Below, one piece after another: positions 21,743 through 38,496 of a stretch of 64,000 nucleotides of DNA (position 1 is its first letter; each line of letters starts with the position of its first letter). The position numbers were made by a program, and so were the translations under genes. The stretch spans positions 124,001 through 188,000 of the forward strand of contig NZ_VOBR01000016.1 of assembly GCF_007845675.1 (NCBI RefSeq). Direction: 5' to 3'. A model generated the notes under the pieces. That model saw nothing but the letters and a program-made list of their open reading frames with translations, was not told the origin of the DNA and searched no databases. This DNA comes from Lentzea tibetensis (GTDB taxonomy: Bacteria; Actinomycetota; Actinomycetes; Mycobacteriales; Pseudonocardiaceae).

Positions 21743-23032
21743 ATGGCCTCACCCCAACTCCACAGGTTCACGCTTCCCAACGGCCTGCGGGTGGTGCTCG
21801 CGCCCGACGCCAGCGCACCGGTCGTCGGGGTGAGCGTGCACTACGACGTCGGCTTCCGATCGGAACCCGAGGGGCGCACAGGTTTCGCGCACCTCTTCGA
21901 GCACCTCATGTTCCAGGGCAGCGAGAGCCTGGAGAAACTGGCGCACTTCCGCCACGTCCAGTCGTCGGGTGGGACGTTCAACGGGTCGACGCACCCGGAC
22001 TACACGGACTACTACCAGGTCCTGCCGTCCGCGGCGCTGGAGCGCGCGCTGTTCCTCGAGGCCGACCGGATGCGCGCGCCGAAGATCACCGAGGAGAACC
22101 TCCGCAACCAGATCGACGTGGTGAAGGAGGAGATCAGGCTCAACGTGCTGAACCGCCCGTACGGCGGCTTCCCGTGGATCCTGCTCCCGCCGGTGCTGTT
22201 CCAGACGTTCCCCAACGCGCACAACGGGTACGGCGACTTCGTCGACCTGGAGAACGCCACGGTCGACGACTGCGCCGCGTTCTTCGACACCTACTACTCG
22301 CCCGCCAACGCCGTGCTGACCGTCGCCGGTGACGTCGACGTGGCCGCGGCCACCGCGTTGGTGGAGAAGCACTTCGCCGACGTCCCGCCCCGCCCGGCGC
22401 CCGAGCGCCCGTCGTTCGCCGAGCCGCCGCCCTCGGGCGAGGTGCGCTCCACGCACGTCGACGCGCACGCCCCGATGCCCGCGCTGGCGATCGGCTACCG
22501 CGTGCCGGACCCGGTGAGCGACATCGACAACTACCTGGCCTACCTCGTGCTGGCCGGGGTGCTGACCGACGGCGACGGGTCCCGGCTGCAGCAGCGCCTG
22601 GTGCACACCGAGCAGCTGGTCACGGACCTGTCCGCCGGCTGCGGCCTCTTCGGACCGCTCGAGGCACGCGACCCGGACACGTTCAGCATCAGCGCCATCC
22701 ACCCGGCCGACGTGCCCACCGACCGGGTGATCGCGGCGATCGACGAGGAGCTCTCCCGGCTGGCGCAGGAGCCGCCGTCGGTGGAGGAGCTGGCGAAGGT
22801 CACCGCGCGGTGGGCGTCCACCATGCACCGGGAGCACGACCGGCTCACCAACCGGACGCTCGGCCTCGGCTCGGCCGAGCTGCTGTTCGGGCGGGCCGAG
22901 CTGATCTACGAGCTGCCCGAGCGCATCGCCGCGGTCACCGTCGACGAGGTGTCCGCCGCCGCGAAGGCGCTGCGGCCCGACTCGCGCGCCGTGTTGATCG
23001 TCCAGCCCGCCAACGGGGCCGACAGTGTTTGA
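21743..23032 (+). CDS. M16 family zinc peptidase, catalytic subunit
   Basis: 429-aa pitrilysin/insulinase-family (M16B) peptidase. Inverted zinc motif HLFEH (H50, E53, H54) with the distal glutamate in VVKEEIR about 75 residues later, and two repeated halves typical of the fold. It has no obvious signal peptide and probably degrades peptides in the cytoplasm. The next peptidase gene downstream lacks the zinc motif; M16B enzymes commonly work as an active/inactive heterodimer. The genes are separated by 273 bp holding a large imperfect hairpin. Confidence 0.9.
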   Translation: MASPQLHRFTLPNGLRVVLAPDASAPVVGVSVHYDVGFRSEPEGRTGFAHLFEHLMFQGSESLEKLAHFRHVQSSGGTFNGSTHPDYTDYYQVLPSAALERALFLEADRMRAPKITEENLRNQIDVVKEEIRLNVLNRPYGGFPWILLPPVLFQTFPNAHNGYGDFVDLENATVDDCAAFFDTYYSPANAVLTVAGDVDVAAATALVEKHFADVPPRPAPERPSFAEPPPSGEVRSTHVDAHAPMPALAIGYRVPDPVSDIDNYLAYLVLAGVLTDGDGSRLQQRLVHTEQLVTDLSAGCGLFGPLEARDPDTFSISAIHPADVPTDRVIAAIDEELSRLAQEPPSVEELAKVTARWASTMHREHDRLTNRTLGLGSAELLFGRAELIYELPERIAAVTVDEVSAAAKALRPDSRAVLIVQPANGADSV

Positions 23033-23041
23033 TGGCCGCTG

Positions 23042-23171
23042 CTCCGCAGACGGCGGCTCGGTCGCCGGGAAGTCGATCGTCCGGCCACTCGCTCTCGCCG
23101 AACGGGCTTCGCCGATTCGGCGAGACCGGGCGTCCGGACGACCGACGCGACCGAGCGTGGTTTCCGCGGAG
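23042..23171. repeat. About 130-bp imperfect hairpin between the M16 genes
   Basis: Nested arms: TCTCGCCGAA (23093-23102) with 23116-23125, GTCGATCGTCCGG (23072-23084) with 23134-23146 (12 of 13 pairs), GCTCGGTCG (23056-23064) with 23148-23156, and CTCCGC (23042-23047) with 23166-23171. No gene fits this gap. It may lower transcription of the second subunit or be a dispersed hairpin element. Confidence 0.7.
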
Positions 23172-23305
23172 TGCTGCGTTCCGCGCTTGCGCAGAGGTCC
23201 CCGCCAGGGGGTCCCCTGCTTTCATTTTCCCATGCGGCACCGACAGTTTCGGGCACTGACCAGCCAGCCTGTGGACAACCAGCCCGCGACCAACGGAGGA
23301 CAGCT

Positions 23306-24694
23306 GTGAGCGCCCCGGCAACCCACCGCTCCGCCGAGGAGATCGGCCGCACGCCGCTCGGCCCGCGCCCGCTCCCGCCGCTCGGCGAGCAGAAGGCCGC
23401 CGCGGACATGTCCCACGTGGACACCGTCCTGCCGAACGGCCTGCGGGTCATCGCGGTCCGCCGTTCGACCGTGCCGCTGGTCGAGCTGCGGGTGCGCGTC
23501 CCGTTCGCGGACCCGGCCGAGTCGAGCGAGGGCAGCCAGCACTCGGCGCAGGCCGAGATCCTGGCGAACACGCTGCTGACCGGCACGGCCACCCGTGACC
23601 GCGTGCAGATCGACACCGAACTCGCGCTCGTCGGCGGCGAGCTGGACGCGGTGGTCGACCCCGAGCGGCTGAGCATCTCCGGCAGCTCGCTCGTCACCGG
23701 GCTCGACACGCTGCTCGACGTCCTGCGCGACGCGCTCACCGGCGCGGTCTACCCGGCCGACGAGGTCGAGCGCGAGCGGGCGCGGCTGGTGGAGCGCATC
23801 GCGCTCGCCCGGTCGCAGCCGAACGTCATCGCACGCGAGGCGCTGCAGAAGCACCTGTACGGCACGCACCCGTTCGCCAAGGAGATGCCCGAGGCCGACG
23901 AGGTCGCACGCGTCTCCCGCGACGAGGTGCAGGCGTTGCACGCCAAGGCTTTGCTGCCGCGCGGCAGCGTGCTGGCGGTCGTCGGCGACATCGAGCCCGC
24001 GCAGGCCGTCAGCGCCGTCGAGGAAGCGCTGAAGGCCTGGCAGTCCGACGGCGAGGCGCACGAGATGGCGCCGCTGCCGATGGTCGAGGGCGGCGACCTG
24101 GTGCTGGTGAACCGGCCGGGTGCGGTGCAGTCGCAGATCCGGTTGTCCGCGCAGGCCATCACCCGCACCGACCCGCGCTACCCGGCGCTGCAGGTGGCGA
24201 ACCTGGTGTACGGCGGGTTCTTCAGCAGCCGCCTCGTGGAGAACATCCGCGAGGACAAGGGCTACACCTACAGCGCGCGTTCGCACCCCGAGTTCACCTC
24301 GCACAGCGCCACGCTGCTCGTGGACGCGGACACGGCGAGCGACGTCACCGCGGCCGCGCTGCTGGAGACGCGCTACGAGCTGGCGCGCCTGGGTCTCGTG
24401 CCGCCCACGGAGTCCGAAGTGGACACCGCGCGCCGGTACGCGATCGGCTCGCTGCTCACCACGACCTCGTCGCAGGCGGGGCTCGCGTCGTTCCTGGTGA
24501 ACCTCGCGGGGCTCGGGCTCGGCATCGAGTGGCTCGTCGCGCACCCCGAGCGGCTGGCGAACGTGACGGCCGAGCAGGTGGCCGAGGCGGCGCTGGAGTT
24601 CTTCGCCCCCGGCAACTTCACCGGTGTCGTCATCGGTGACGCGGCGAAACTCGCTCCGAAGATGCGTGCTCTCGGTGGGATCATCGTTCCGTGA
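23306..24694 (+). CDS. M16 family protein, probable non-catalytic partner subunit
   Basis: 462-aa M16B-fold protein. The position of HxxEH is occupied by GSQHSAQAEI, so zinc binding is lost, while the substrate-binding GYTYSAR motif in the second half is kept. This is the pattern of the non-catalytic partner in M16B heterodimers. GTG start at 23306 with a strong GGAGGA 5 nt upstream; the longer frame from 23171 would run through the hairpin region. It overlaps nudC by 4 bp (GTGA). Confidence 0.85.
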   Translation: MSAPATHRSAEEIGRTPLGPRPLPPLGEQKAAADMSHVDTVLPNGLRVIAVRRSTVPLVELRVRVPFADPAESSEGSQHSAQAEILANTLLTGTATRDRVQIDTELALVGGELDAVVDPERLSISGSSLVTGLDTLLDVLRDALTGAVYPADEVERERARLVERIALARSQPNVIAREALQKHLYGTHPFAKEMPEADEVARVSRDEVQALHAKALLPRGSVLAVVGDIEPAQAVSAVEEALKAWQSDGEAHEMAPLPMVEGGDLVLVNRPGAVQSQIRLSAQAITRTDPRYPALQVANLVYGGFFSSRLVENIREDKGYTYSARSHPEFTSHSATLLVDADTASDVTAAALLETRYELARLGLVPPTESEVDTARRYAIGSLLTTTSSQAGLASFLVNLAGLGLGIEWLVAHPERLANVTAEQVAEAALEFFAPGNFTGVVIGDAAKLAPKMRALGGIIVP

Positions 24695-25641
24695 CATTCG
24701 ACCTGGTTGGCCTTCCCGCGTTGTCGCGGTTCACGATCGACCGTCAGGAGCCGCTGCGCGGTGACGACGAGCGGCTGCAGCAGCTGTGGCCGAAGTCGCG
24801 GGTGATCGTGGTGGACGTGCGCGGACGGACGCTCGTGTCCGACCGCGGCACGCGGGTGGTCGACCGGCCGGCGACGGAGTTCGGCGACCAGCCGCCGCAC
24901 ACCGCCGTCCTGCTCGGCGAGCAGGACGGCGTGGCGCACTGGGCCGTCCCGCTCCCCGCCGAAGAGACCGAGGAGGCGCCCGCCGGGCGCGCGTGGAGTT
25001 ACCCCGAGCTGACGGACGAGCCGCAGTGGCTCGACCTCCGCCAGTCCGGGGCCACTTTGGACGACACGTCCGCCGGTCTGTTCACGACCGCGGCCGCGCT
25101 GTTCCAGTGGCACCGCATCGCGAAGTTCTGCGCCAAGTGCGGTGCGCCCACCACCGTCGAGAAGTCCGGCTGGGTGCGGATCTGCTCCGGCTGCGGCCGC
25201 GAGGAGTACCCGCGCACCGACGCCGCCGTGATCTGCCTCGTCCACGACGGCGCGGACCAGGTGCTCGTCGCGCGCGGCGTCGAATGGCCGGAGGGCCGGT
25301 TCTCCGTGCTCGCCGGGTTCGTCGAGGCAGGCGAGTCGCTGGAAGCGTGCGTCGCGCGCGAGATACTCGAAGAGGTCGGTGTCACCGTGCACTCGGTGCG
25401 CTACCTCGGCAGCCAGCCGTGGCCGTTCCCGCGCTCGCTGATGATCGGCTTCGAGGCGATCGCCGACCCCACCGAGCCGCTGCGCCCCGCCGAAGGTGAG
25501 ATCGCGGAAGCCAAGTGGGTCCCGCGATCCCTGCTCCGCGAAGCGTTGAAGGCACCCGGCACCGTCCCGGACCTGTACATGGCCGGTGGCGCGTCGATCG
25601 CCTACCGGATGCTGCAGTCCTGGGCCGCCGAAGGCGACTAG
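24691..25641 (+). CDS. nudC: NAD+ diphosphatase / NAD-cap decapping Nudix hydrolase
   Basis: 316 aa. NudC cleaves NADH/NAD+ to NMNH/NMN plus AMP and can remove NAD caps from RNA. A zinc ribbon of two Cys pairs (FCAKCG and CSGCG), the Nudix box GFVEAGESLEACVAREILEEVG and the family signature SQPWPFPRS are all intact, so it should be active. GTG start coupled to the preceding M16 stop. It ends tail-to-tail with the dioxygenase gene with a 4-bp overlap. Confidence 0.93.
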   Translation: MTFDLVGLPALSRFTIDRQEPLRGDDERLQQLWPKSRVIVVDVRGRTLVSDRGTRVVDRPATEFGDQPPHTAVLLGEQDGVAHWAVPLPAEETEEAPAGRAWSYPELTDEPQWLDLRQSGATLDDTSAGLFTTAAALFQWHRIAKFCAKCGAPTTVEKSGWVRICSGCGREEYPRTDAAVICLVHDGADQVLVARGVEWPEGRFSVLAGFVEAGESLEACVAREILEEVGVTVHSVRYLGSQPWPFPRSLMIGFEAIADPTEPLRPAEGEIAEAKWVPRSLLREALKAPGTVPDLYMAGGASIAYRMLQSWAAEGD

Positions 25642-27328: not shown

Positions 27329-28399
27329 TCAGGTGAGCGTCGTGAGGACGTGCTCCTCGGTGACCTGGAGCCCGGTCGCCGCCATGGTCCCGGCGAGCTG
27401 GGCGTCCCACGACGCGGCGGGCGGCGGCGTGGTCAGCGTCGGCAGCTCGACGCCCTGCGTGAGCAGCGCGGCGACCGCGTCGCGGTAGTCGGTCGCGGAC
27501 ATTCGCCATGCCGTGCCGCCGGTCCACGCCAGCACGTCGTCGACCAGCCTGATGCCGTCCGCGGTGAAGTCGCCGTGGCAGCGGATGCGCGTGCCCCGGT
27601 CGGCCAGGCGCGCGAGGTGGTGCCGCGCCTGTGCAGTGAGCCCGTGGTCGAGCACCAGCAGCGGGCCGGGGAAACCGGACTCCAGCAGGCGCGGGCTGCG
27701 GCACACGGTGATCTCGGCGAACTCGGGTGCGCTGTCCAGCGTGAGGTGGCCGTTGGTCGTCAGCACCGGGTCGGCGAGTCCGTCCCGCAGCACGCCGCAG
27801 CGCTCCCACAGGGTGCGCGGATCACGCGGTACGTCCACGCCGTGCGCGAGCGCGGCCGCGCGCAGGACGATCCGCGCCAGCGGTCGTCCGTCGTCGAGGT
27901 CGTTGCCCGCCAACGAGTGCCGTGACACCCACGCGCGCGGTGGTGCGTCGAGCGCCATGCGGCTGAGCACCTCGGCGGCGCGCGTCGCGAGCATCGGCAG
28001 CGCCGGCTGGGGGATCTTGCCGTAGCGGCGCACCTGCTCGATCCACGCCGCCGCCCACGGCCGCGCGTCCAGCCTGTGCTCGCGCAACGCGAACCGCAGC
28101 ACCGCGTCCGCCGTCGGCGCCTCCTGCTCGGCCGTCATGCCGACCGGCCTGCCGTGCACGGACTCCAGCACGCCGACCAGCGTGGTCCCGGCGGCGCGCA
28201 GGTGTTCGTCCAGGCGCGCCAACGAGATCTGCCTGCGCGCCGGGTGCGCGACGGGCTTGCGCAGCACCTCGCCCAGCGCCTCGGCGGTCGCCGCGTCCTC
28301 GACGCGGATGCTGAACGCCGAGCGCCCGCCGCCCTCGAGCGTCTCGCGCGCGAGTTGCCACAATTTGGCCAGTTCAGGGCGGTGGTACGGATTTGTCAC
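27329..28399 (-). CDS. jetD: JetD-like (TIGR02679/DUF2399) Wadjet nuclease subunit, divergent
   Basis: 356-aa homologue of JetD, the TOPRIM/topoisomerase VI-like nuclease that cleaves plasmids extruded by the Wadjet SMC complex. The LWERCGVL segment (about 198-205), the C-terminal TOPRIM-like region and the terminal WRMSATDY agree with the type II family as I recall it. However, the expected CENP (catalytic Glu) reads CRSP at 233-236, and the expected GDFD reads GDFT (D277, T279). The protein is also shorter than usual for the family. It may be catalytically impaired or repurposed. It is on the same strand as jetABC but separated from it by two opposite-strand genes. Confidence 0.75.
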   Translation of the reverse strand: MTNPYHRPELAKLWQLARETLEGGGRSAFSIRVEDAATAEALGEVLRKPVAHPARRQISLARLDEHLRAAGTTLVGVLESVHGRPVGMTAEQEAPTADAVLRFALREHRLDARPWAAAWIEQVRRYGKIPQPALPMLATRAAEVLSRMALDAPPRAWVSRHSLAGNDLDDGRPLARIVLRAAALAHGVDVPRDPRTLWERCGVLRDGLADPVLTTNGHLTLDSAPEFAEITVCRSPRLLESGFPGPLLVLDHGLTAQARHHLARLADRGTRIRCHGDFTADGIRLVDDVLAWTGGTAWRMSATDYRDAVAALLTQGVELPTLTTPPPAASWDAQLAGTMAATGLQVTEEHVLTTLT

Positions 28400-28473: not shown

Positions 28474-28509
28474 GCAATCGATCTTGAAGCAAGGCCAGGG
28501 GGAGTGATC

Positions 28510-29163
28510 TTGCGGTCCGGACTCGTCGCCACCATCGTTCTCGCTTGCATCGCCGGAGTCTCGTTCCTCACCGCGTGGCTGATCACCATGGGGTCCAAGG
28601 GCGGTGAGCTCGCCGACATCCTGTCCACCTCACTGGGTGCGCTGTCGTTGCTCGTCACCGCGCTCAGCTTCTCGTTCAACGTCAGGGAGCGCAGGCGGCC
28701 CGAGCGGCACGCGAAGGTCCACCGGCCCCGCTGGATGTGGGTCTCGGCGGCACTGCTCACGACCGCGCTCGCCGGTGTCGCCGGCTACTTCTGGATCTTC
28801 GTCAAGTCGGACATCCCGGTGACCGACCGTGCGCAGATCACCGACGGCGCCCGGATGAAGGTCGGTGTCGAGGCGGCGATCCACATCCCCGGCGACCCGC
28901 CGGATCGCAGGTACTTCGCGTTCGTGCCCGCACTGACCAACCCGACGGCGGTCGGGGACTGCGTCGGCTCCGCGCGGCTGAAGATCGCGTTGACGATCGA
29001 CGGCAGGCGGACCCAGCAGCAGACGGGTGTGCTGCCGCAGCAGGAGATCACGATGGACCTCGACGGCGTCGCTCGCGAAGCGAAGGTGCTGGTCGTGCTC
29101 GACATGCAGGACCCGGCCTGCGAGGTCGACCTGAGCCTCACCGAAGCCGTTCTCTACAACTAG
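28510..29163 (+). CDS. Hypothetical three-helix membrane protein
   Basis: 217 aa. Hydrophobic segments at about residues 5-23, 35-52 and 77-97, then an extracytoplasmic C-terminal domain with two cysteines (GDCVG and PACEV). No family recognised. The TTG at 28510 has AGGGGGA six bases upstream; a GTG at 28504 is the alternative. Followed after 14 bp by a solute-binding lipoprotein on the same strand, so the two probably form an operon. The pair lies between jetC and jetD, pointing against them. It may sense or anchor the lipoprotein; that is inference. Confidence 0.65.
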   Translation: MRSGLVATIVLACIAGVSFLTAWLITMGSKGGELADILSTSLGALSLLVTALSFSFNVRERRRPERHAKVHRPRWMWVSAALLTTALAGVAGYFWIFVKSDIPVTDRAQITDGARMKVGVEAAIHIPGDPPDRRYFAFVPALTNPTAVGDCVGSARLKIALTIDGRRTQQQTGVLPQQEITMDLDGVAREAKVLVVLDMQDPACEVDLSLTEAVLYN

Positions 29164-29177
29164 GAAGAGCTGTCGCC

Positions 29178-30023
29178 ATGCTTCGCCTTCTCGCTGTCCT
29201 GCTGGCCGCGGCGCTGCTCGCCGCGTGCGGCTCCCAGGGCAGAACACCGACCACCGCCGCGTCGGCGCCGACCACGCGCGAAGCAGCCGCCGCGCCGCCG
29301 CTCAACGTCGGCGTGTCCACGGACCTCCCCGGTGTCGGCAGCTTCGACGCGAGCGCGCACGTGCGGTCCGGGTTCGACGTCGACCTGTACCGCTGGCTGG
29401 CCAACGAGAGCCCCGAGTTCACCCCGGTCGAGGTCGACCTGCCGATCAAGGACCGGGTGAACGCGTTGGTGGACAAGAAGGTCGGCATCGTGGTGGCCGG
29501 TTTCTCCATCACCGACGAGCGCCGCAAGTCGATCTCGTTCGCGGGCCCCTACCTGGAGACCCAGCAGGGCGTGCTGATCCGCGCCGACGACAAGCGGATC
29601 GCCGTCGTCAACGACCTCAGCGGCAAGACGGTGTGCGCGCCGCGGGGCAGCACGTCGCTGGCGCAGCTGTCCCAGGCGCAGCAGGGCCGGATCACGATCG
29701 TCGAGGTCACCGGCTCGCAGGAGTGCGTCGACAAGCTGGTCGCCGGTCAGGTGGACGCCTTCTCCACCGACCAGCTGATGCTCTACGGGTTCGCCAGGAA
29801 GGACGCGGCGCGGGTCGCCGTGGTGCCGAACCTCGTCTTCGGCGCCAAGGAGCGCTACGGCATCGGGCTGCCCAAGGGTGACGTCGCGTTGTGCAGGCAG
29901 CTCAGCGAGAAGCTCCGCACGTTCATGACGAGCGGGGCGTGGGAGGAGTTCTTCCGCACGAACTTCGGCGAGCTCAGCCCGGCCGGGTACAAGCCGGACC
30001 CGTACGTGCTCGACCCCTGCTGA
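29178..30023 (+). CDS. Family 3 solute-binding lipoprotein
   Basis: 281 aa. Lipoprotein signal peptide with lipobox LAAC (Cys17), then a periplasmic-binding-protein fold of the amino-acid (SBP_bac_3) type: a GVSTDLPGVGSF entry strand, GFDVDLYRWL, DRVNALVDKKVGIVVAGFSITDERRK, SFAGPYLETQQGVL and GLPKGD. No permease or ATPase gene is nearby, so it is an orphan receptor or feeds a transporter encoded elsewhere. ATG at 29178 with AGGAAG upstream. Its stop abuts the stop of jetC. Confidence 0.85.
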   Translation: MLRLLAVLLAAALLAACGSQGRTPTTAASAPTTREAAAAPPLNVGVSTDLPGVGSFDASAHVRSGFDVDLYRWLANESPEFTPVEVDLPIKDRVNALVDKKVGIVVAGFSITDERRKSISFAGPYLETQQGVLIRADDKRIAVVNDLSGKTVCAPRGSTSLAQLSQAQQGRITIVEVTGSQECVDKLVAGQVDAFSTDQLMLYGFARKDAARVAVVPNLVFGAKERYGIGLPKGDVALCRQLSEKLRTFMTSGAWEEFFRTNFGELSPAGYKPDPYVLDPC

Positions 30024-33000
30024 TCACGGATCGACCCGGTCCAGCGCCGCCCCGTCCCACGTGGTCTGCGTGCACGCCACCCCGCGCCCGTTCTTGGGCC
30101 GCAGCACGTCGTAGATGTGCATGCGCGGAATCTTGTCCGACACGCCCCACCCGGACGGCCAGGTGATCACCCAGTCCATGTCCAGGTCGACGAGCAGGCC
30201 GAGCATGCGGGCGATCGTCGGGTCGTCGAGGCGTTCGAACGCCTCGTCCAGCAGCACCAGGCGCAGCGGGTCGAACTCGCCGGACACCGCGTCGTAGAAG
30301 CTGGCCGCCGCGGCGAACAGGGTCACGTACGAGATCAGGCGGGTCTCGCCGGACGACAGCTGGCGCAGGCGCCGTTCGCGCGGGTTGCCGTCCGGGCCGG
30401 TGTCGGCGACGGTCACCGTGAACTGGTGCCACGTGCGGTAGTCCAGCGCGCGAGAGAGGATCTCGGCGTAGCCGCCGGTGTGCGTGTCGCGCTCGGCCTC
30501 GATGCGTTCGGTGAACACGCGGCGCAAGGTCGCGTCCTGCTCGGGCGTGCGTTCACCGAACGGCAGGCGCACCAGTGCGAGCGCCTGGCGCGTCTCGTCG
30601 TCCAGCGCCGAGCTCGACTTCCAGGACAGCTTCACGTGCACGCCCTGGCTCGACCGCGCCTGGGACAGCACCTCGTTCATCCGCTTCGTCAGGTCCTCGG
30701 CCACCGAGATCTGGCCGCGCAGCCACTCGGCCAGGTCGCGGATCAGGTAGTCGGCGAAGATGCTCTGGTACTGCTCGTCGAGGAAACCGCGCTGCTCGGC
30801 CAGTTTCGTCGTCACCTGGCGGGCGGCGACCGCGACCGGGCGCGCGCCCTCCTCGCCGGTCACCGTCACGGTCAGCAGGCCCGCGTGCTGCTCGGCGGCG
30901 ATGTCGTGGCTGCCGGACAACGACGTCTGCAACGCCTGCAGCTTGCTGATCACCGTCGCCTCACCCGCACCGCGCCGGTCGCCCGCCTCCGTGATCGCGG
31001 CGCGCACCGCGGCGTGGTCACCGTCCACCTCGGGCAGTGCGGCGACGAGCAGGCCCGGTGCGCGCACGGTCGCGTCGAACTGCGACACCGCACGGACCTC
31101 GGCGTCCTCGGCCTCGGTGACCTGCTCGGAGTTGGTCTCCAGCAACGCTTCCAGCTTCGCGGCCTGTTCGCGGGCCGCGGTGACCTGCTCGCGCACGGTC
31201 TTCAGGTCCGTGCGCATCTGCTTGCGCTGCGACTCCAGCGACGTCAGCTGTCCGGCGATCTCGCGCGCCTCGCCGCCGATCGCGTCGGTCAGCTCCGCCA
31301 GCGTGCTCGCCTGGGCCGCGTAGTCGACGCACCGCGCGTCCGCGTCCGACTCGGCGGTCTCGCGGTCCTGCACGGACTCGTGGTAGCGGTGCGCGGCGTC
31401 GGTCAGGTCGGAGATCGTGCCCTGGCAACGCTTCCGCATCGCGTCACCGAGCCGGTCCGCGATGCGCTGCGCCTCGGCGGCCGCCGACTGGGCGTGCCGC
31501 AGGCCGTCCGAGTCGGCGGGCAGGCCCGCGTCACCGGCCTGCTTCACCAGCTCGCCGCGCGCGGCTTCCACGCGCGTCGCGGCCGTGTCCAGCTCGGCGC
31601 GGAGCTCCTGGGTGCGCTGTTGCGCGCGTTCGGCCGACTCCTCCGCCGACTGCACGCGGCTGTGCTTCGCGATCAGCTCGCCATCGGCGGGGAACTCCGC
31701 CAGGTGCGACTCCCAGGCAGCGACCTGCTCGTGCGCGCCGGCCAGTTCCTCTTCAGCCACACCGAGTTCGGCGCGCAACGACGCCAGCTGGTCCTCGAGG
31801 TCCGAGATCCGGCGCTGCCGTGCCGCCTCGCGCGCACCGGCGCCGATGAACTCGGCTTCCGGCTTGCTCCACCGCCCGGTGAGCACACCCGCACGCCAGC
31901 CGCCGTCAACCGACAGCACCAGCGCGTTGTCGTCGTCGAGCGCCACCGCGGCCAGCAGCTCTGCCACCAGCTCCTCGGCCACCGGCGACCCCTCCACCGC
32001 CGGCACGAGCACGTCGGCCAGCGAACGACCGGCGACTGCGGGCCGCGAGGTCGCGACGACGTAGCCGTCGCACGAGCCCTCGGTGACCCACGCGTCGAGC
32101 AGGCCGCTCGCCTGCAACGCCGCCTCCAGCCCGGCTCGTTCGGAGTCGCTCAGCGATGAAGTGAAGTCCACCAACCGGTAGAAGGGTGCGCCGCTGGCAG
32201 AATCCCGTTGTGCCGCAACGTACTTGCCCGGCTCGGGGACGCGCTCGTCACCGGAGCGCAGGCCGGCCAGCTCGGCGTCCAGCTCGTCGATGCGCGTGCG
32301 GAGCTCGGTGCGCTGCTGGGAGAACGCGTGCGCGGCGTCGCGGGCGGCCTGCACCAGCGGGCCCGTCCACTCGCGGGCCATGCCGGTCAACGCCCGCGCG
32401 CCTGCCGGGTCGATCACCGACGGCAGTGCGAACTCCTGCTCCGGCCGTTCACCGGCCAGCGGGCCCGCACCGCACCACGTCTCGACGCTCGAGAGCCACG
32501 CGGAGGTCAGTGACGCGAGCTCCTGCACCTCCTGGTTGCGCAGCGCGGTCGACTCGGTCGCGGCGAGCTGCGAGTCGCGTGCCTTCTGCCGCAACGAGTC
32601 CACGGACAGCTGCTGCGCGTCCAGCTCCAGCGCCTGCTGGTGCAACGCCAAGGCCAACGCACCCCGTTGCCGCGCAAGGGAGGCGATGGAGGTCGTGGCG
32701 TCGGATGCCTTGCCCAACGCGGTGACGACGTCCTCGGTCGCGGCGGCGGGCGGTACGCGCCGTTCGATCGGCAGGGGCTCGGACTCGGGGTCCGGCTTGG
32801 CGCGCACCGATGCCGTGACAACGGAAGCCGACGCGTCCGGCACCTGCGGCACGACGGGCGCGAGCGAGTCGTCCATGCCCGCGGCACGCAGGTGCTGGCG
32901 CAGCGGCTCGCTCAGCTCGGCGGCCGAACCCAGGTCCTCGGCGAGGCGGCGCAACAGGCGCAGCACACCCTCGACGGCCGCGTCCTCCTGCGCCCGTTGC

Positions 33001-34049
33001 TTCGCGGCCATCTCCAGCGCCGCGATCGCGGAGGAACGCTTCTCCGCCACCAGGTTCTCGCGCGTCTTCAGGTCCTGCAGATCGCGGAACGCGGGCAGTT
33101 CCTTCAGCGCCGCGATGGTCTCCTCGGCCTGCTGCTCACCGGTCTCGAGCTCGCCGAGCGACTGCTCCGACGACACCCGCTCCGACCGCGTCTGGTCCAG
33201 CTGGCCGGACAGCTTCGCCTGCTCGCGCCGCAGCCGCGCGACGGACTTCTCGGCCGCGTCCAGCTTCTCCGCCGACGAGCGCAGCCCGCCGAACGCGTAG
33301 TCCGAGTACGTCTTGAGGAACGTGCCCAGCGCACTGTCCGCGGAGGACAGTCGCGTGATGTTCTCGCGGATCGACTCGAGGTCGTCGAACGACGTCGCCA
33401 GCTGCTCGATCATGACCTGGTCCAGCGGCGGCAGCGCGTCCGACAGGATCTGCTCCAGCTGGCCTTCCAGCACCTTCAGTCCGACGTCCGGGTTGCGCAG
33501 CGTGCGCTGCAGGTGCAGCAGGTCCGGGTAGCGCGCGGCAGGCACGCCGTAGACGGTCTCCGCGATCTTGGCGCGGAACGCCGCGTCCTCGAACACGCAG
33601 TCCGCGCCGATCACGTCACGCAGGTTCGCGGGCCCCAGCGGCACCCGGTCCGGCCCGGCGAGCTGCAGGTCGTGGCCGACCCGCATGCCGGTGACGAACC
33701 GCCACGAGTCCGTGATCGCCTGCGACGTCTTGGACGCCTTCACGCCGAGTCCGCAGGTCAGGAACTCCTCGTCGCGCTTGAGCTCCACCCACGCGTACCC
33801 GATGCGGTTCGGGCCGCCGTCGTAGTCGTCCAGCATGAGCCGCCGGATGCTGACCGTGTCGAAGCCCTTCGAACCGAGCTGACGCAGGTCGCCGTCGAGG
33901 CACAGCGGCAGCAGCAGCTCGAGCGTGCGCGACTTGCCGGAGCCGTTGGTGCCCTGGAAGATCGCGCGCCCACCGGAGAAGTCGAACGTCTGCTCGGTGT
34001 ACTGCCAGATGTTGACGATGCCGCCGCGGTGCAGCCGCCACCTGCTCAT
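30024..34049 (-). CDS. jetC: JetC-like SMC/MukB-type ATPase (TIGR02680)
   Basis: 1341-aa SMC-like motor of a Wadjet system, which extrudes circular DNA loops and marks small plasmids for cleavage. The ATP head is split: Walker A GTNGSGKS (33-40) at the N-terminus, and ABC signature LSSGETR (1231-1237) plus Walker B VLLDEAF (LDEAF 1267-1271) at the C-terminus. Long coiled coils (Glu/Ala/Arg/Gln-rich heptads) flank a central hinge-like globular segment. All ATPase motifs are intact. Its ATG overlaps the jetB stop by 4 bp, so jetABC are translationally coupled. Confidence 0.92.
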   Translation of the reverse strand: MSRWRLHRGGIVNIWQYTEQTFDFSGGRAIFQGTNGSGKSRTLELLLPLCLDGDLRQLGSKGFDTVSIRRLMLDDYDGGPNRIGYAWVELKRDEEFLTCGLGVKASKTSQAITDSWRFVTGMRVGHDLQLAGPDRVPLGPANLRDVIGADCVFEDAAFRAKIAETVYGVPAARYPDLLHLQRTLRNPDVGLKVLEGQLEQILSDALPPLDQVMIEQLATSFDDLESIRENITRLSSADSALGTFLKTYSDYAFGGLRSSAEKLDAAEKSVARLRREQAKLSGQLDQTRSERVSSEQSLGELETGEQQAEETIAALKELPAFRDLQDLKTRENLVAEKRSSAIAALEMAAKQRAQEDAAVEGVLRLLRRLAEDLGSAAELSEPLRQHLRAAGMDDSLAPVVPQVPDASASVVTASVRAKPDPESEPLPIERRVPPAAATEDVVTALGKASDATTSIASLARQRGALALALHQQALELDAQQLSVDSLRQKARDSQLAATESTALRNQEVQELASLTSAWLSSVETWCGAGPLAGERPEQEFALPSVIDPAGARALTGMAREWTGPLVQAARDAAHAFSQQRTELRTRIDELDAELAGLRSGDERVPEPGKYVAAQRDSASGAPFYRLVDFTSSLSDSERAGLEAALQASGLLDAWVTEGSCDGYVVATSRPAVAGRSLADVLVPAVEGSPVAEELVAELLAAVALDDDNALVLSVDGGWRAGVLTGRWSKPEAEFIGAGAREAARQRRISDLEDQLASLRAELGVAEEELAGAHEQVAAWESHLAEFPADGELIAKHSRVQSAEESAERAQQRTQELRAELDTAATRVEAARGELVKQAGDAGLPADSDGLRHAQSAAAEAQRIADRLGDAMRKRCQGTISDLTDAAHRYHESVQDRETAESDADARCVDYAAQASTLAELTDAIGGEAREIAGQLTSLESQRKQMRTDLKTVREQVTAAREQAAKLEALLETNSEQVTEAEDAEVRAVSQFDATVRAPGLLVAALPEVDGDHAAVRAAITEAGDRRGAGEATVISKLQALQTSLSGSHDIAAEQHAGLLTVTVTGEEGARPVAVAARQVTTKLAEQRGFLDEQYQSIFADYLIRDLAEWLRGQISVAEDLTKRMNEVLSQARSSQGVHVKLSWKSSSALDDETRQALALVRLPFGERTPEQDATLRRVFTERIEAERDTHTGGYAEILSRALDYRTWHQFTVTVADTGPDGNPRERRLRQLSSGETRLISYVTLFAAAASFYDAVSGEFDPLRLVLLDEAFERLDDPTIARMLGLLVDLDMDWVITWPSGWGVSDKIPRMHIYDVLRPKNGRGVACTQTTWDGAALDRVDP

Positions 34050-35236
34050 GACGCGTTCTCCTCATCGAACAGGGACCAGCTGGGCACTACCTCGGCCACG
34101 GGTTCCGGCACGGCTTCCCGTTCCGGATCGCCGTCCGGCACCGGGATCCACCGGTGCGCCGCCGCGCTGATCGACCAGCCGTCGTCGCACGGGACAGCGA
34201 GTCCCATGCGCCGCAACAACTCCGTCACCTCGTCGGTCAACCGGTCGAGGTCGTCGGTGAACTGCTTCGACCACGCCGCCGGGTAGTCCTCGACGAGCAC
34301 GGCGCACGCCTCACGAATCCGTTGCCGGGCAACGACATGCCGTGCGGGCGCGTCTTCGTGCTCGTGCTCCACCAGCTCGGGCAGTGCGAGCAACGCGATG
34401 CGCGCGACCGTCGAGGTGCCGGGGAAGTAGAGGTCGGTGAGGACGTCCTCGGGATCGGACGTCAGCACGCCCTCGACCCGGCACTCGGTGTAGAGGCCGA
34501 AGCACTGCTCCAGCAACGCGGTTTCCTTGCGCTGGTTGCGGCGCAGCCACTCGGACTGGTCGTCCGGCAGGTCCGCGTACAGCACCAGCGGCGTCTCGAC
34601 GAGCTTGCGGCGCACCGCGTGCTCGACGCCGCGCGGGCCGGGACGCGCGGCGAGCCGCACCAGGTGCTCCGGCGACTCGGCCTCGCCGACCGGGCCCGTG
34701 ACGAGCTGGCCGAGCAGGTCCGTGTCGATGGTGATCAGCGCTTCCTGCGGCACGGTGTCCTGCACGACCGTGCCCTCGGTCTCGTGCACCACGCCCAGCG
34801 ACACCAGGTGGCGCAGCGCGGCGGTGAGCGCACGGCGTTCGGTGATGTCGTCCGGCGCGTCGATGCCCGCTTCCGTCGCGGCGGCGCGGATGTCGGCCAC
34901 CAGCCGTGACAGCAGCGTCTGGCGGCCGGTGCCGGTCAGCACGGCCAGCGTCAGCGCCAGGTAGGCATACGCGCGCGGCGACAGACCCAGCACGCCACGG
35001 GTGTCGTCGTTGCCGGGGCCGGACTTGTACAGGCGCGCGAAGCGGCGTTCGACGACCAGCCGGTAGCCCAGCAGGCCGGCGAAGAGGTCCTGGAGCACCG
35101 CGCGGTGCCGGTAGACGAGCGTGAGCAGCTCGCCGTCCGGGCCGTCCGTGCGCAGCAACGGCCTGCGCAGCAACGTGCGCGCGCAGCGCACCACGTTCGC
35201 GGCGTCGATGTCCGAGAGCTCGTCGAGTTGGTTCAT
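34046..35236 (-). CDS. jetB: JetB-like (TIGR02678/DUF2398) Wadjet kleisin-associated subunit
   Basis: 396 aa. JetB is the MukE/KITE-like winged-helix subunit that bridges JetA and JetC. The protein is soluble with winged-helix-like segments; the opening VVRCARTLLRRPLL and the LVYRHRAVLQDLFAGLLGYRL motif match the DUF2398 family. The ATG at 35236 forms an ATGA overlap with the jetA stop; the longer frame upstream runs antisense-like through jetA in another phase and is not real. The C-terminus overlaps jetC by 4 bp. Confidence 0.88.
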   Translation of the reverse strand: MNQLDELSDIDAANVVRCARTLLRRPLLRTDGPDGELLTLVYRHRAVLQDLFAGLLGYRLVVERRFARLYKSGPGNDDTRGVLGLSPRAYAYLALTLAVLTGTGRQTLLSRLVADIRAAATEAGIDAPDDITERRALTAALRHLVSLGVVHETEGTVVQDTVPQEALITIDTDLLGQLVTGPVGEAESPEHLVRLAARPGPRGVEHAVRRKLVETPLVLYADLPDDQSEWLRRNQRKETALLEQCFGLYTECRVEGVLTSDPEDVLTDLYFPGTSTVARIALLALPELVEHEHEDAPARHVVARQRIREACAVLVEDYPAAWSKQFTDDLDRLTDEVTELLRRMGLAVPCDDGWSISAAAHRWIPVPDGDPEREAVPEPVAEVVPSWSLFDEENAS

Positions 35237-36705
35237 TCGCTCAGTGCCAATGTCGCGTCGTGCAGGGTGAGGGTGCCGGCCGCGGACTGGATCTTCGTCG
35301 TGGTGCCGTGGCTGACCGTGACCTTGAGGCCGCGGACCGGATCGCTCGCCTCGCCCGAGTCCTGCGGGGTGTCGCGCTGGGCCATCGCGAGCGTGAGCAG
35401 CTCGCAGAGTACTTCGAGCGCGCCGTGGCTCAGCGTCGTGCCGTGCAGGTCCTTCGCCGCCCTGGTCAGCTCGGTGACGTGCGCGGCCCTGCGTTCGTCC
35501 GCCTCGCGGGCTTCGGCCAGCAGCGACTGCTCGGTCATCGGGTCGTCCAGGATCCGCGACGTCCGGCCGCGCGCGCCGCGGTCGCCGCGGCTGCGGACGC
35601 TGACCGTCACGTCGTGCACCGGGCCGTCGCGCCACGCGGTGCGCTCGTTGTCGCTGTCGTGGTCCGGCGCGGGGGACAGGTGGCGCGCCGAGTAGAGGCC
35701 GAACGCCGCCGCGTACAGCTCGTGCGCCTCCTCGCGGGTGCCGCTGTCGAACCACTTCGCGAGCTTCAGCAGCTCGGCCCGCCGTCCCGGGAGCAGGCCG
35801 CCGCCGGACGTCGCGCGCTTGACGCTGGCCAGGAGGCTGCCGATGGCGCGGGCGGTGGCTTCGCGCAGCGCGGTGACCTGGCTCGGGCGGCCCGGCCGGT
35901 CGACGAACCAGTCGGTGAGGTCCTGCCAGTCGTGCTCGCTGCGCCCGCGGGCCCGTTCGACGTCGCCCGCCAGCTCGGTGCCGAGCAGCCGCAGCAGTTC
36001 GGGACGGGCCCTGGTCAGCGCGGCCAGCGTCTCCGCGATCGCGGGCGTGTACTTCAGCACGTCCTCGACGACCCGCTGGATGTACTCGACGAGCAGGTTG
36101 CGGAACCCGGCGATCTCGTCCGGCGCCAGGTGGTTCCGCGTGACGACCTGGCCGAGGTAGGCGTAGAAGTCGCGGACCGTCGCGGCCAGCTCGGCGTGCT
36201 GGAGGAACAGCGTGGTGACGCGTTCGGCCAGCAGCTCCCTGGTGCGCTCGCCCTCGTTGAGCAGCGCTACTGACAGGCTGCCGCCGAGTTCGCTGAGGCC
36301 GCGTTCGATCGCGGGCAGCAGCTCGCGGGCCACCTCGCGGGCGCCTTCGGGCGCGCGCAGCAGCTCGTCGACGTCGCGCTGGACGCGGACGGCGAGCTTG
36401 CTGACCTGGTAGCGGACGCTGCCGTGCTGGAACTCGGCGATGCTCGCGGCGACCACCTCGCGGCGGCCCTGCACGAGGTTGCCCCACTCGACCAGCTGCT
36501 TGAGCCGGGTGATGACGTTCTCGATGCGGGACTCGCCCTGCTCCACCCGTCCCTCGCGTTCAGCACCCGCGAGCGCTCCCGCCACCTCGCCCGCGGACAG
36601 GTCGGCCAGGAGCGTGGAGGTGAACAGACGCATGATCGCCAGGTACGTGCGCTGGTGGTCGCGCGCGTCCAGATAGGCGTACAGCTTCAGCCTCTTGTGC
36701 TCCAC
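35233..36705 (-). CDS. jetA: JetA-like (TIGR02677/DUF2397) Wadjet kleisin subunit
   Basis: 490 aa. JetA is the MukF-like kleisin of the Wadjet complex. The N-terminal region (LYAYLDARDHQRTYLAIMRLF) and the long helical middle fit DUF2397. GTG start at 36705, first gene of the tight jetA-jetB-jetC operon (two 4-bp overlaps). It is divergent from cobD; the 71-bp gap between the starts must hold both promoters. Type II assignment is based on this DUF2397-DUF2398-SMC-DUF2399 set. Confidence 0.88.
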   Translation of the reverse strand: MEHKRLKLYAYLDARDHQRTYLAIMRLFTSTLLADLSAGEVAGALAGAEREGRVEQGESRIENVITRLKQLVEWGNLVQGRREVVAASIAEFQHGSVRYQVSKLAVRVQRDVDELLRAPEGAREVARELLPAIERGLSELGGSLSVALLNEGERTRELLAERVTTLFLQHAELAATVRDFYAYLGQVVTRNHLAPDEIAGFRNLLVEYIQRVVEDVLKYTPAIAETLAALTRARPELLRLLGTELAGDVERARGRSEHDWQDLTDWFVDRPGRPSQVTALREATARAIGSLLASVKRATSGGGLLPGRRAELLKLAKWFDSGTREEAHELYAAAFGLYSARHLSPAPDHDSDNERTAWRDGPVHDVTVSVRSRGDRGARGRTSRILDDPMTEQSLLAEAREADERRAAHVTELTRAAKDLHGTTLSHGALEVLCELLTLAMAQRDTPQDSGEASDPVRGLKVTVSHGTTTKIQSAAGTLTLHDATLALSE

Positions 36706-36776
36706 GACCGGCCACCCTAATGCGGGCGACCGGCGGTCGCGGCGCTACGGTCTCTTCGGACTCTGGGGAGGCAGGC

Positions 36777-37709
36777 GTGGGCGCGGGGCGCGCGGTCGGG
36801 TTGTTGCTGGGCGTGGCAGCGGATGCGGTGCTGGGTGATCCGAAACGATTTCACCCGGTAGCGGCATTCGGGCGGACAGCCGCCGCGCTGGAACGCCGTC
36901 TCTACCGCGATCACCACGCGGCGGGTGTCGCGTACTCCGCCGCGCTGGTCGGCGGGACCGTTGCCGCTGGTGTCGCACTCGAACGGGTGGGGCGGCGGCA
37001 CTGGGTGCTGCAGGCGCTGACGACCGGTCTGGCCACCTGGGCGGTGCTCGGCGGGCGGTCGCTGGCCGCCGAGGGCACCGCGATGGGCCGTGAGCTGGAC
37101 GCGGGCGATCTGGACGCCGCGCGGGCCCGGCTGCCTCATCTCTGCGGCCGCGAACCCTCCCGGCTCGACTCGTTCGGACTGGCGCGGGCGACCGTCGAGT
37201 CCGTGGCGGAGAACACCTCGGACGCGGTCGTGGCGCCGCTGCTGTGGGGCGCCGCGTTCGGCGTCCCCGGACTCGTGGGCTACCGCGCCGCGAACACCCT
37301 GGACGCGATGGTCGGGCACCGCTCGCCCCGCTACCGACGGTTCGGCTGGGCGTCGGCGCGGCTGGACGACGTCGCGAACCTGCTGCCCTCGCGTGCCGCC
37401 GCTCTGCTGACCATCGCCGGCGCGCCGGTCGTCGGAGGCTCGGCTTCGCAGGCCTTGGAGACGTGGCGGCGTGACGCGTCCGCGCACCCGTCGCCCAACG
37501 CCGGCCAGGTGGAGGCCGCGTTCGCCGGTGCTCTGGAGATCAGGCTCGGCGGGCGGACCGTGTACTCGCACGGCGCGGAGGAACGGCCGGTGCTCGGGCA
37601 CGGGCGCAACCCCGACGCCGGTCACGTGACGCGTGCGGTGGAGCTCTCGCGCGTGGTCGGGTTCGGTGCGGCGCTGCTGTCCGCGCTGGTGGCGATCTTC
37701 CGCCGCTGA
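36777..37709 (+). CDS. cobD: Adenosylcobinamide-phosphate synthase CobD/CbiB
   Basis: 310-aa polytopic membrane enzyme joining aminopropanol (phosphate) to cobyric acid in cobalamin synthesis. Family signatures: an ADAVLGDPKRFHPVAAFG opening, VESVAENTSDAVVAPLLW in the middle, GYRAANTLDAMVGH, and ASAHPSPNAGQVEAAFAG. The GTG at 36777 has GGGGAGG five bases upstream; the frame extends to 36720 but without homology. In mycobacteria cobD is also next to a SURF1-like gene, as here. Confidence 0.92.
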   Translation: MGAGRAVGLLLGVAADAVLGDPKRFHPVAAFGRTAAALERRLYRDHHAAGVAYSAALVGGTVAAGVALERVGRRHWVLQALTTGLATWAVLGGRSLAAEGTAMGRELDAGDLDAARARLPHLCGREPSRLDSFGLARATVESVAENTSDAVVAPLLWGAAFGVPGLVGYRAANTLDAMVGHRSPRYRRFGWASARLDDVANLLPSRAAALLTIAGAPVVGGSASQALETWRRDASAHPSPNAGQVEAAFAGALEIRLGGRTVYSHGAEERPVLGHGRNPDAGHVTRAVELSRVVGFGAALLSALVAIFRR

Positions 37710-37719
37710 ACCCGGTGGG

Positions 37720-38496
37720 TCAGCCGTTCTGCCTGGTCTCCTGGTAGGCGTCTTCCTCTTCGGCCAGCATCTCGGCGACCGACTTGCGGCGCGTGCGCTC
37801 CTGCGTGAGCGCCCCGCCCGGCTGGATCTCGCGCCAGCTGAAGTAGGCCCACCCGCCGAGCGCCATCACGCCGAACGCGATCCACTGGAGTGCGTAGGAG
37901 AAGAACGGTCCCGCGTCGAGCTTCGGCAGCGGCAGCGCGTTGATCGCGCCCGGCTGGTCCTCCACGATCTGGAAGTAGCCGGGCTTGATGCCCTTGCCGA
38001 CCGCCTCGGTGTTGATCGAGTACACCTGCCGGCGCCCGTCCTGCTCGAACGCGGGCCGCGCGTCCGACTCGTTCGGCCGGGCCATGCCGATCACCGTGAC
38101 CTCGCCGCTGGGCGGCGCGGGGAAGTCCGGCGGCTTGATGCCGTTGACCGGCCGGACGTAGCCGCGGTCGACCAGGACCGTGGTGCCGTCGGTCGTGCGG
38201 AACGGCGTGAGCACCTCGAACGCCGCCTCGCCCTGCACCGTGCGCAGCCGGGCGAGCGCTTCGTCCTGCGGTGCGTAGGTGCCGGTCAGCCGGACCTTCT
38301 GCCACTCGCCGTGCCCGGCGGTGAGTGCGACCGGTTCGCTCCGGATCGACCGCGTGATCGCGTTGTTCTGCGTCTCGCGCTCCACGTCGCGGCTGAACTG
38401 CCACGGGGCGAGGAGGGTGAAGCAGGCCGTCGCGAAGACCCAGACGACGAGGGTCAACGCGATCCAGCCTGGCTGCAGGAGGAACCGGAACCGCAC
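37720..38496 (-). CDS. SURF1 family cytochrome oxidase biogenesis protein
   Basis: 258 aa. One N-terminal membrane helix (PGWIALTLVVWVFATACF), an extracytoplasmic domain with the SURF1 motif VLVDRGYV, and a C-terminal helix (YALQWIAFGVMALGGWAYF). SURF1 proteins help assemble heme-copper oxidases. GTG start at 38496. Convergent with cobD, stops 10 bp apart. The same neighbour pairing occurs in mycobacteria. Confidence 0.88.
   Translation of the reverse strand: MRFRFLLQPGWIALTLVVWVFATACFTLLAPWQFSRDVERETQNNAITRSIRSEPVALTAGHGEWQKVRLTGTYAPQDEALARLRTVQGEAAFEVLTPFRTTDGTTVLVDRGYVRPVNGIKPPDFPAPPSGEVTVIGMARPNESDARPAFEQDGRRQVYSINTEAVGKGIKPGYFQIVEDQPGAINALPLPKLDAGPFFSYALQWIAFGVMALGGWAYFSWREIQPGGALTQERTRRKSVAEMLAEEEDAYQETRQNG

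Follow-up and report, generated by a model that had tools for sequence, protein, structure and literature searches.

Wadjet is a machine by which bacteria loop DNA and, as a rule, destroy plasmids, and EptABCD of Mycobacterium smegmatis is a Wadjet of type II. The window studied here (the whole stretch of DNA analysed, 64,000 nucleotides from Lentzea tibetensis) holds such a system with a nuclease subunit, JetD, that is predicted to be catalytically dead, and the question that this locus raises is what a Wadjet motor does when its cutter should no longer cut. The locus and its neighbours are as follows.

21743..25641, plus strand: two peptidase genes of the M16 family and a Nudix gene, forming the conserved flank next to jetD; synteny holds in many core loci
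27329..28399, minus strand: jetD, predicted catalytically dead, 356 aa, N-terminal DUF3323 domain followed by a DUF2399 TOPRIM domain
28504..29163, plus strand: probable membrane protein (by reading), between jetC and jetD; the ORF can begin at 28393
29172..30023, plus strand: family-3 solute-binding protein (by family match), between jetC and jetD; start approximate
30024..34049, minus strand: jetC, SMC ATPase, 1341 aa (TIGR02680, 731 bits; PADLOC JetC2, 1242 bits)
34046..35236, minus strand: jetB, KITE subunit, 396 aa, ATG start (DUF2398, 321 bits; JetB2)
35233..36705, minus strand: jetA, kleisin, 490 aa (DUF2397, 399 bits; JetA2)
36720..37709, plus strand: cobD, divergent from jetA and the anchor of the core locus (CobD_Cbib, 310.9 bits)
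37720..38496, minus strand: SURF1-family gene past cobD, a conserved flank, syntenic in many core loci

The jetA, jetB and jetC genes are complete, overlap by 4 bases at both the A/B and the B/C junction, and form one operon of the DUF2397, DUF2398 and TIGR02680 types, as in a type II Wadjet; the TIGR02677 match (150.7 bits) is below its cut-off of 165.85. Next in order on the same strand is jetD, a genuine ORF of 356 aa with a GTG start codon, with two opposite-strand genes intervening between it and jetC. JetD matches DUF3323 over residues 30–216 (84.8 bits) and DUF2399 over residues 229–356 (76.3 bits), both above the Pfam gathering score, which is the domain pair of a type II JetD, and it is called JetD2 by PADLOC; its match to NCBIfam TIGR02679 (116.1 bits) is under the 196-bit cut-off. 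Past jetD lie an AraC-type regulator, a PhyH gene, the Nudix gene and the two M16 peptidase genes.

The two inserted plus-strand genes (28504–30023) were found in none of 15 other Lentzea loci, and the membrane-protein ORF (28504..29163) gave no family match above cut-off. The gap between JetC and JetD ranges from 3 to 2595 bp across 15 Lentzea loci (within L044–L068 and L189–L193).

A search of solved structures by sequence with the window JetD returned nothing useful. The AF2 model of the protein (pLDDT 84.4, pTM 0.54, from 9 sequences) had as its top PDB fold matches MksG (8b7f, E = 2.7e-6) and JetD (7til, E = 5.8e-5), then topoisomerase VI A. The TM-scores of the first three rows of this fold search were low (0.25–0.34), as would be expected if the two JetD domains were turned differently, and we take the fold assignment of the model to be sound and the arrangement of its domains to be tentative.

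Two short motifs of the TOPRIM domain, located by alignment and codon reading, carry the prediction that the enzyme is dead.

27692..27706, minus strand: TOPRIM motif 1, V-C-R234-S-P, which is V-C-E-N-P in active relatives
27563..27574, minus strand: TOPRIM motif 2, G-D277-F-T279, which is G-D-F-D in active relatives

Residues 233–236 read C-R-S-P (Arg codon 27700–27698) and residues 276–279 read G-D-F-T (Thr codon 27565–27563), so that the window has V-C-R-S-P and H-G-D-F-T where typical relatives with the E-D-D residues have V-C-E-N-P and H-G-D-F-D. A sequence-only reading of the window had claimed that CENP and GDFD are replaced, and alignments with E-D-D homologues agree: the Glu of (C)ENP aligns with R234 and the second Asp of DFD with T279, leaving the catalytic set of a type II JetD (Glu; D-x-D) incomplete. 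That reading was right about the GDFT substitution, with its residue range to be corrected from 277–279 to 276–279, and also about the surrounding signature segments being kept, as little or no variation is seen at R237, H275, F278, G282, W298 and R299 among 35 intact core JetDs and 28 of the R-D-T type. Because these flanking positions are near-invariant, they fix the alignment columns and no other Glu or Asp of the window JetD slides into them; an alignment check for catalytic residues elsewhere in the protein found none that fits. The acidic residues retained are D277, the first Asp of D-x-D, and a C-terminal pair, E348/E349. PMC10123090 reports that the nuclease of the type I homologue MksG is drastically impaired by E236A and likewise by D279A. 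An Arg at the Glu position would be incompatible with normal metal binding and, judged from the sequence together with these published mutants, the window JetD should not cleave DNA.

A JetD match was present in all 25 Lentzea genomes searched. Counting that of the window, 24 copies are full-length; 23 of them have R in place of the Glu and one has H, and at the second Asp 23 have T and one has S; the conservation among close homologues that the sequence-only reading had proposed to check is complete. In the 25th genome (G011), jetD carries a frameshift, and R and T can still be read in the second half of the gene. Since the R/H and T/S states are genus-wide, the substitutions are ancestral, not sequencing error or chance. 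The median pairwise dN/dS of JetD across 15 Lentzea sequences is 0.190 (N-terminal domain 0.189, TOPRIM 0.180), indicating purifying selection and a dead enzyme that is conserved as a protein, TOPRIM included; the corresponding medians are 0.093 for JetA, 0.147 for JetB and 0.157 for JetC. The protein is also short, as had been claimed: Lentzea JetDs have 334–356 aa, whereas intact JetDs at this locus have 400–454 aa (start sites set by profile match), and a missing part of the inter-domain stretch accounts for the difference.

The same locus was then read across the family. Of 249 Pseudonocardiaceae genomes sampled, 134 have a JetA at E ≤ 1e-60; in four of these it is only a distant, accessory JetA, and core JetA is absent at this threshold from 119 of the 249. 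At E ≤ 1e-100, JetA occurs in 25 of 298 genomes sampled from the order, all 25 being Pseudonocardiaceae. With about half of the family sample lacking core JetA, the complex is dispensable over long times. We read 129 core loci, from 128 of the 130 other genomes (with neither the window's own genome nor G008) and from G011, and 126 loci from 26 genera could be scored. Across the core loci JetA is at least 61.7% identical, and in 120 of the 129 cobD lies next to jetA in divergent orientation.

The scorable loci divide into 35 with an E-D-D JetD, 34 with at least one of the three residues replaced, six with a TOPRIM-less JetD and 51 with none, where absence was scored within the stretch read downstream of JetC (median about 6.7 kb, shortest 2.3 kb) and includes weak profile matches beside JetC (19–23 bits, profile positions 1–46; L119–L121, L123 and L149). 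JetD is never intact in 18 of the 26 genera, and the residue that replaces Glu varies among copies (T, S, A, Q, M, R or H). On the JetA tree at least six changes between intact and not intact are needed, or 12 if loss is irreversible (8 or 6 with branches below SH-aLRT 80 or 95 collapsed), counts that are approximate because the tree is a quick one with some long branches. The substitutions are as the sequence-only reading saw them, but they are genus-wide and belong to a family-wide inactivation and loss of JetD that lay beyond its view.

The six TOPRIM-less core JetDs (L058, L059, L060, L061, L110 and L126, in genera g2, g10 and g22) are cut to the N-terminal DUF3323 domain (181–263 aa) and remain downstream of JetC on the same strand. 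Two g21 loci (L099, L101) have, about 1.8 kb downstream of core JetC, a very divergent 362-aa JetD-like protein on a long branch, with M-E-T at the catalytic positions. At one further core locus (L049; G184, g45) the gene is inverted, with JetD on the strand opposite to JetC.

The motor has fared differently from the nuclease. The sequence-only reading had made DNA binding or extrusion conditional on intact JetC and JetAB, and in the window JetA, JetB and JetC are complete, with JetC keeping Walker A (GTNGSGKS), the signature (LSSGE) and Walker B (LVLLDEA). Of the 126 core loci that could be scored, 125 have all three ATPase motifs regardless of the state of JetD, the exception being G011, in which jetC is broken. 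An apparent loss of Walker A in four g21 JetCs proved to be a trimming artefact at split BLAST matches, the whole frames showing all three motifs; the L170 JetC also has Walker A, which the motif pattern search of whole frames missed. In two g46 genomes (G101 and G069; L181, L182) JetA was matched as two separate pieces, which suggests a frameshift or insertion in jetA.

Scaled to the dN of cobD at the same loci, the dN of JetA is 0.38–0.97 and that of JetC 0.71–1.10 in eight of 11 genera, while JetC reaches 1.4–1.8 times cobD in g21, g22 and g34; JetABC is kept roughly at housekeeping-level constraint, with exceptions. Raw dN/dS hinted at tighter constraint on JetABC after JetD loss in g1 (Lentzea), g16, g19 and g27, but not in g21 or g31, and we rejected this idea when scaling to cobD removed most of the trend. 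Co-evolution of JetB with JetD was likewise considered. The type I IFDR motif is reported to contact JetD, and an F-D-x-L stretch near the JetB N-terminus, which was compared with it, has Phe in 32 of the 35 intact loci and mostly Leu elsewhere; the Phe follows phylogeny, differing in none of four independent pairs that differ in JetD state, and co-evolution was rejected.

Outside the core locus, accessory JetDs of the same family have E-D-D in 37 of 38 distinct cases (20 of the 37 matches from a DUF3323 search of genomes with a JetD-less locus, and 18 from other searches), the exception being a TOPRIM-less fragment. Against the 35 intact and 34 replaced TOPRIM-bearing core JetDs, the difference gives a Fisher's p of 1e-8, with relatedness ignored. 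The 20 accessory loci that were fetched have a JetC-like protein nearby in 20 of 20 cases and a JetB-like protein in 19. A tree of the N-terminal domain separates 88 core and stand-alone JetDs from eight accessory ones (SH-aLRT 100), so the dead copies descend from the resident gene.

The SMC–kleisin–KITE motor is thus kept, in the manner of MksBEF, without an active JetD in the window and in 91 of the 126 scored core loci. Because jetD has been repeatedly inactivated, truncated or deleted while jetABC has been kept, the motor must serve some purpose that needs no cutting, and the likeliest, by analogy with Pseudomonas MksBEF, is chromosome organisation or segregation, a role that we infer from conservation. 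We consider it fairly probable that the locus is a resident type II Wadjet whose nuclease has been disarmed repeatedly and whose SMC motor is retained for a probable non-cutting chromosome role. JetD would then be a nuclease subunit that has kept the TOPRIM fold but not the chemistry of cutting, in a JetABCD that is resident and inherited vertically, the change of a metal-binding Glu to Arg and of one metal-binding Asp to Thr leaving the window protein presumably unable to cleave DNA. JetABC would most likely still load on and loop chromosomal DNA, and the Lentzea complex may extrude DNA without cutting it, with the dead JetD as a DNA-binding, dimerising cap that may sit on JetABC. As it is still under selection, the dead Lentzea JetD is probably a structural or regulatory subunit.

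Several other explanations were weighed. The Lentzea complex might still act against plasmids: it could loop or sequester the DNA, or bring in an unrelated nuclease, and the dead JetD would serve as adaptor. That JetD is dead yet selected, that the JetC motor is intact and that the family is known for plasmid defence all fit this account. The sequence-only reading had similarly proposed that another nuclease could supply the activity, and the searches gave this no support. The dead JetD is the sole DUF3323 match in the window's genome at E ≤ 0.001, which covers the DUF3323 fold, and among linked genes no family downstream of JetC is common to the JetD-less genera, as judged with a rough gene finder. 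Downstream gene clusters considered as a replacement nuclease adjoining JetC span at most four genera, and those read resemble peptidase and dehydrogenase by eye. Among the 50 genomes in which no core-locus JetD was seen (a contig end cuts two of the loci), a DUF3323 match lies elsewhere in 28, over the cut-off in 27, and one of these is the stand-alone dead copy of G161; this weighs against the disarmed-Wadjet reading preferred above, although the window's genome has no such second copy. We regard continued defence of this kind as unlikely.

Alternatively, the entire locus could be a defence system in decay that is gradually being lost, with the dead JetD a mere intermediate. Dead, truncated and absent states of JetD do recur, 10 of 15 other Lentzea loci have 0.5–2.6 kb between JetC and JetD, the JetC gene is split across two frames in two g19 genomes (L120, L121), and core JetA is missing from many genomes, as given above. 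The single-contig Lentzea genome G011 (L067), with jetC in pieces and jetD frameshifted, would also fit, its state reflecting either sequencing error or real decay. A locus on its way out should hardly show ATPase motifs in nearly every scorable JetC, constraint near that of cobD in most genera and a dN/dS of 0.18 for the JetD TOPRIM across Lentzea, however, and we hold decay to be somewhat less likely still.

A dead jetD also occurs by itself. Stand-alone jetD genes of the R-D-T type are present in four g21 genomes (L069–L072) and in Saccharothrix luteola (L085), at about 9–10.6 kb in each, and their five neighbourhoods have no other gene in common within about 5 kb. The genes are 90–97% similar to one another, the similarity stopping no more than about 60 bp before and 200 bp after the gene, and 79–82% identical to Lentzea jetD. 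In the JetD tree the four copies from g21 nest within Lentzea (SH-aLRT 99, for a branch that excludes just two basal Lentzea copies), while in the JetA tree Lentzea remains its own clade, which points to transfer of the dead jetD as a single gene. The g21 genomes concerned carry JetABC at the cobD locus. A dead JetD could then be a regulator or decoy, spreading as a single gene, binding its own or an accessory JetABC and blocking plasmid cleavage as an anti-Wadjet protein derived from the Wadjet nuclease itself, an idea that we rate as improbable.

That JetD still cuts DNA through a remodelled site using D277 and E348/E349 is the least credible account: these residues are present in 28 of 28 R-D-T-type copies and the C-terminal glutamates have been suggested as nucleophiles in JetD (PMC10123090), but loss of the Glu alone drastically impairs MksG, as described in the same source, an Arg there should disfavour metal binding, and elsewhere the same Glu has become T, S, A, Q or M, or the domain or gene is missing.

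The preferred explanation, a resident Wadjet disarmed at its nuclease, has consequences beyond this genus. One syntenic locus displays the apparent stages together (active, point-dead, TOPRIM-less and absent), repeatedly and with the motor kept, which suggests a former weapon now in ordinary chromosome work, and we found no report of a dead or missing JetD in Pseudonocardiaceae in the open-licence PMC literature. The role of a Wadjet motor without its cutter becomes directly testable in culturable actinomycetes. Tools that call Wadjet because its genes are present can list a non-cutting complex as a defence system: the PADLOC JetD model matches the dead window copy. In PMC10586767, a review, it is called tempting to derive chromosome condensins such as MksBEF and MukBEF from a Wadjet-like defence complex.

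Three known systems bear comparison with the locus. Type II Wadjet JetABCD (TIGR02677/02678/02680/02679) has the same four gene families in the order A-B-C-D, and the window matches PADLOC JetA2, B2, C2 and D2 and the JetD fold; the window differs in a shortened JetD with the TOPRIM Glu and second Asp replaced, in a jetD split from jetC by two opposite-strand genes, and in being core chromosomal, not accessory. Type I MksBEFG/JetABCD (Corynebacterium glutamicum, Pseudomonas aeruginosa PA14) supplies the best fold matches of the window JetD, 8b7f and 7til, whereas those nucleases are active and equipped with metal-binding acidic residues, two of which the window JetD lacks. MksBEF of P. aeruginosa, described in PMC10586767 as a Wadjet-like SMC complex without a nuclease subunit that serves chromosome organisation, is like the window in having a Wadjet-related motor without a working nuclease; MksBEF has no JetD, whereas the window is built of type II families and Lentzea retains a dead JetD under selection.
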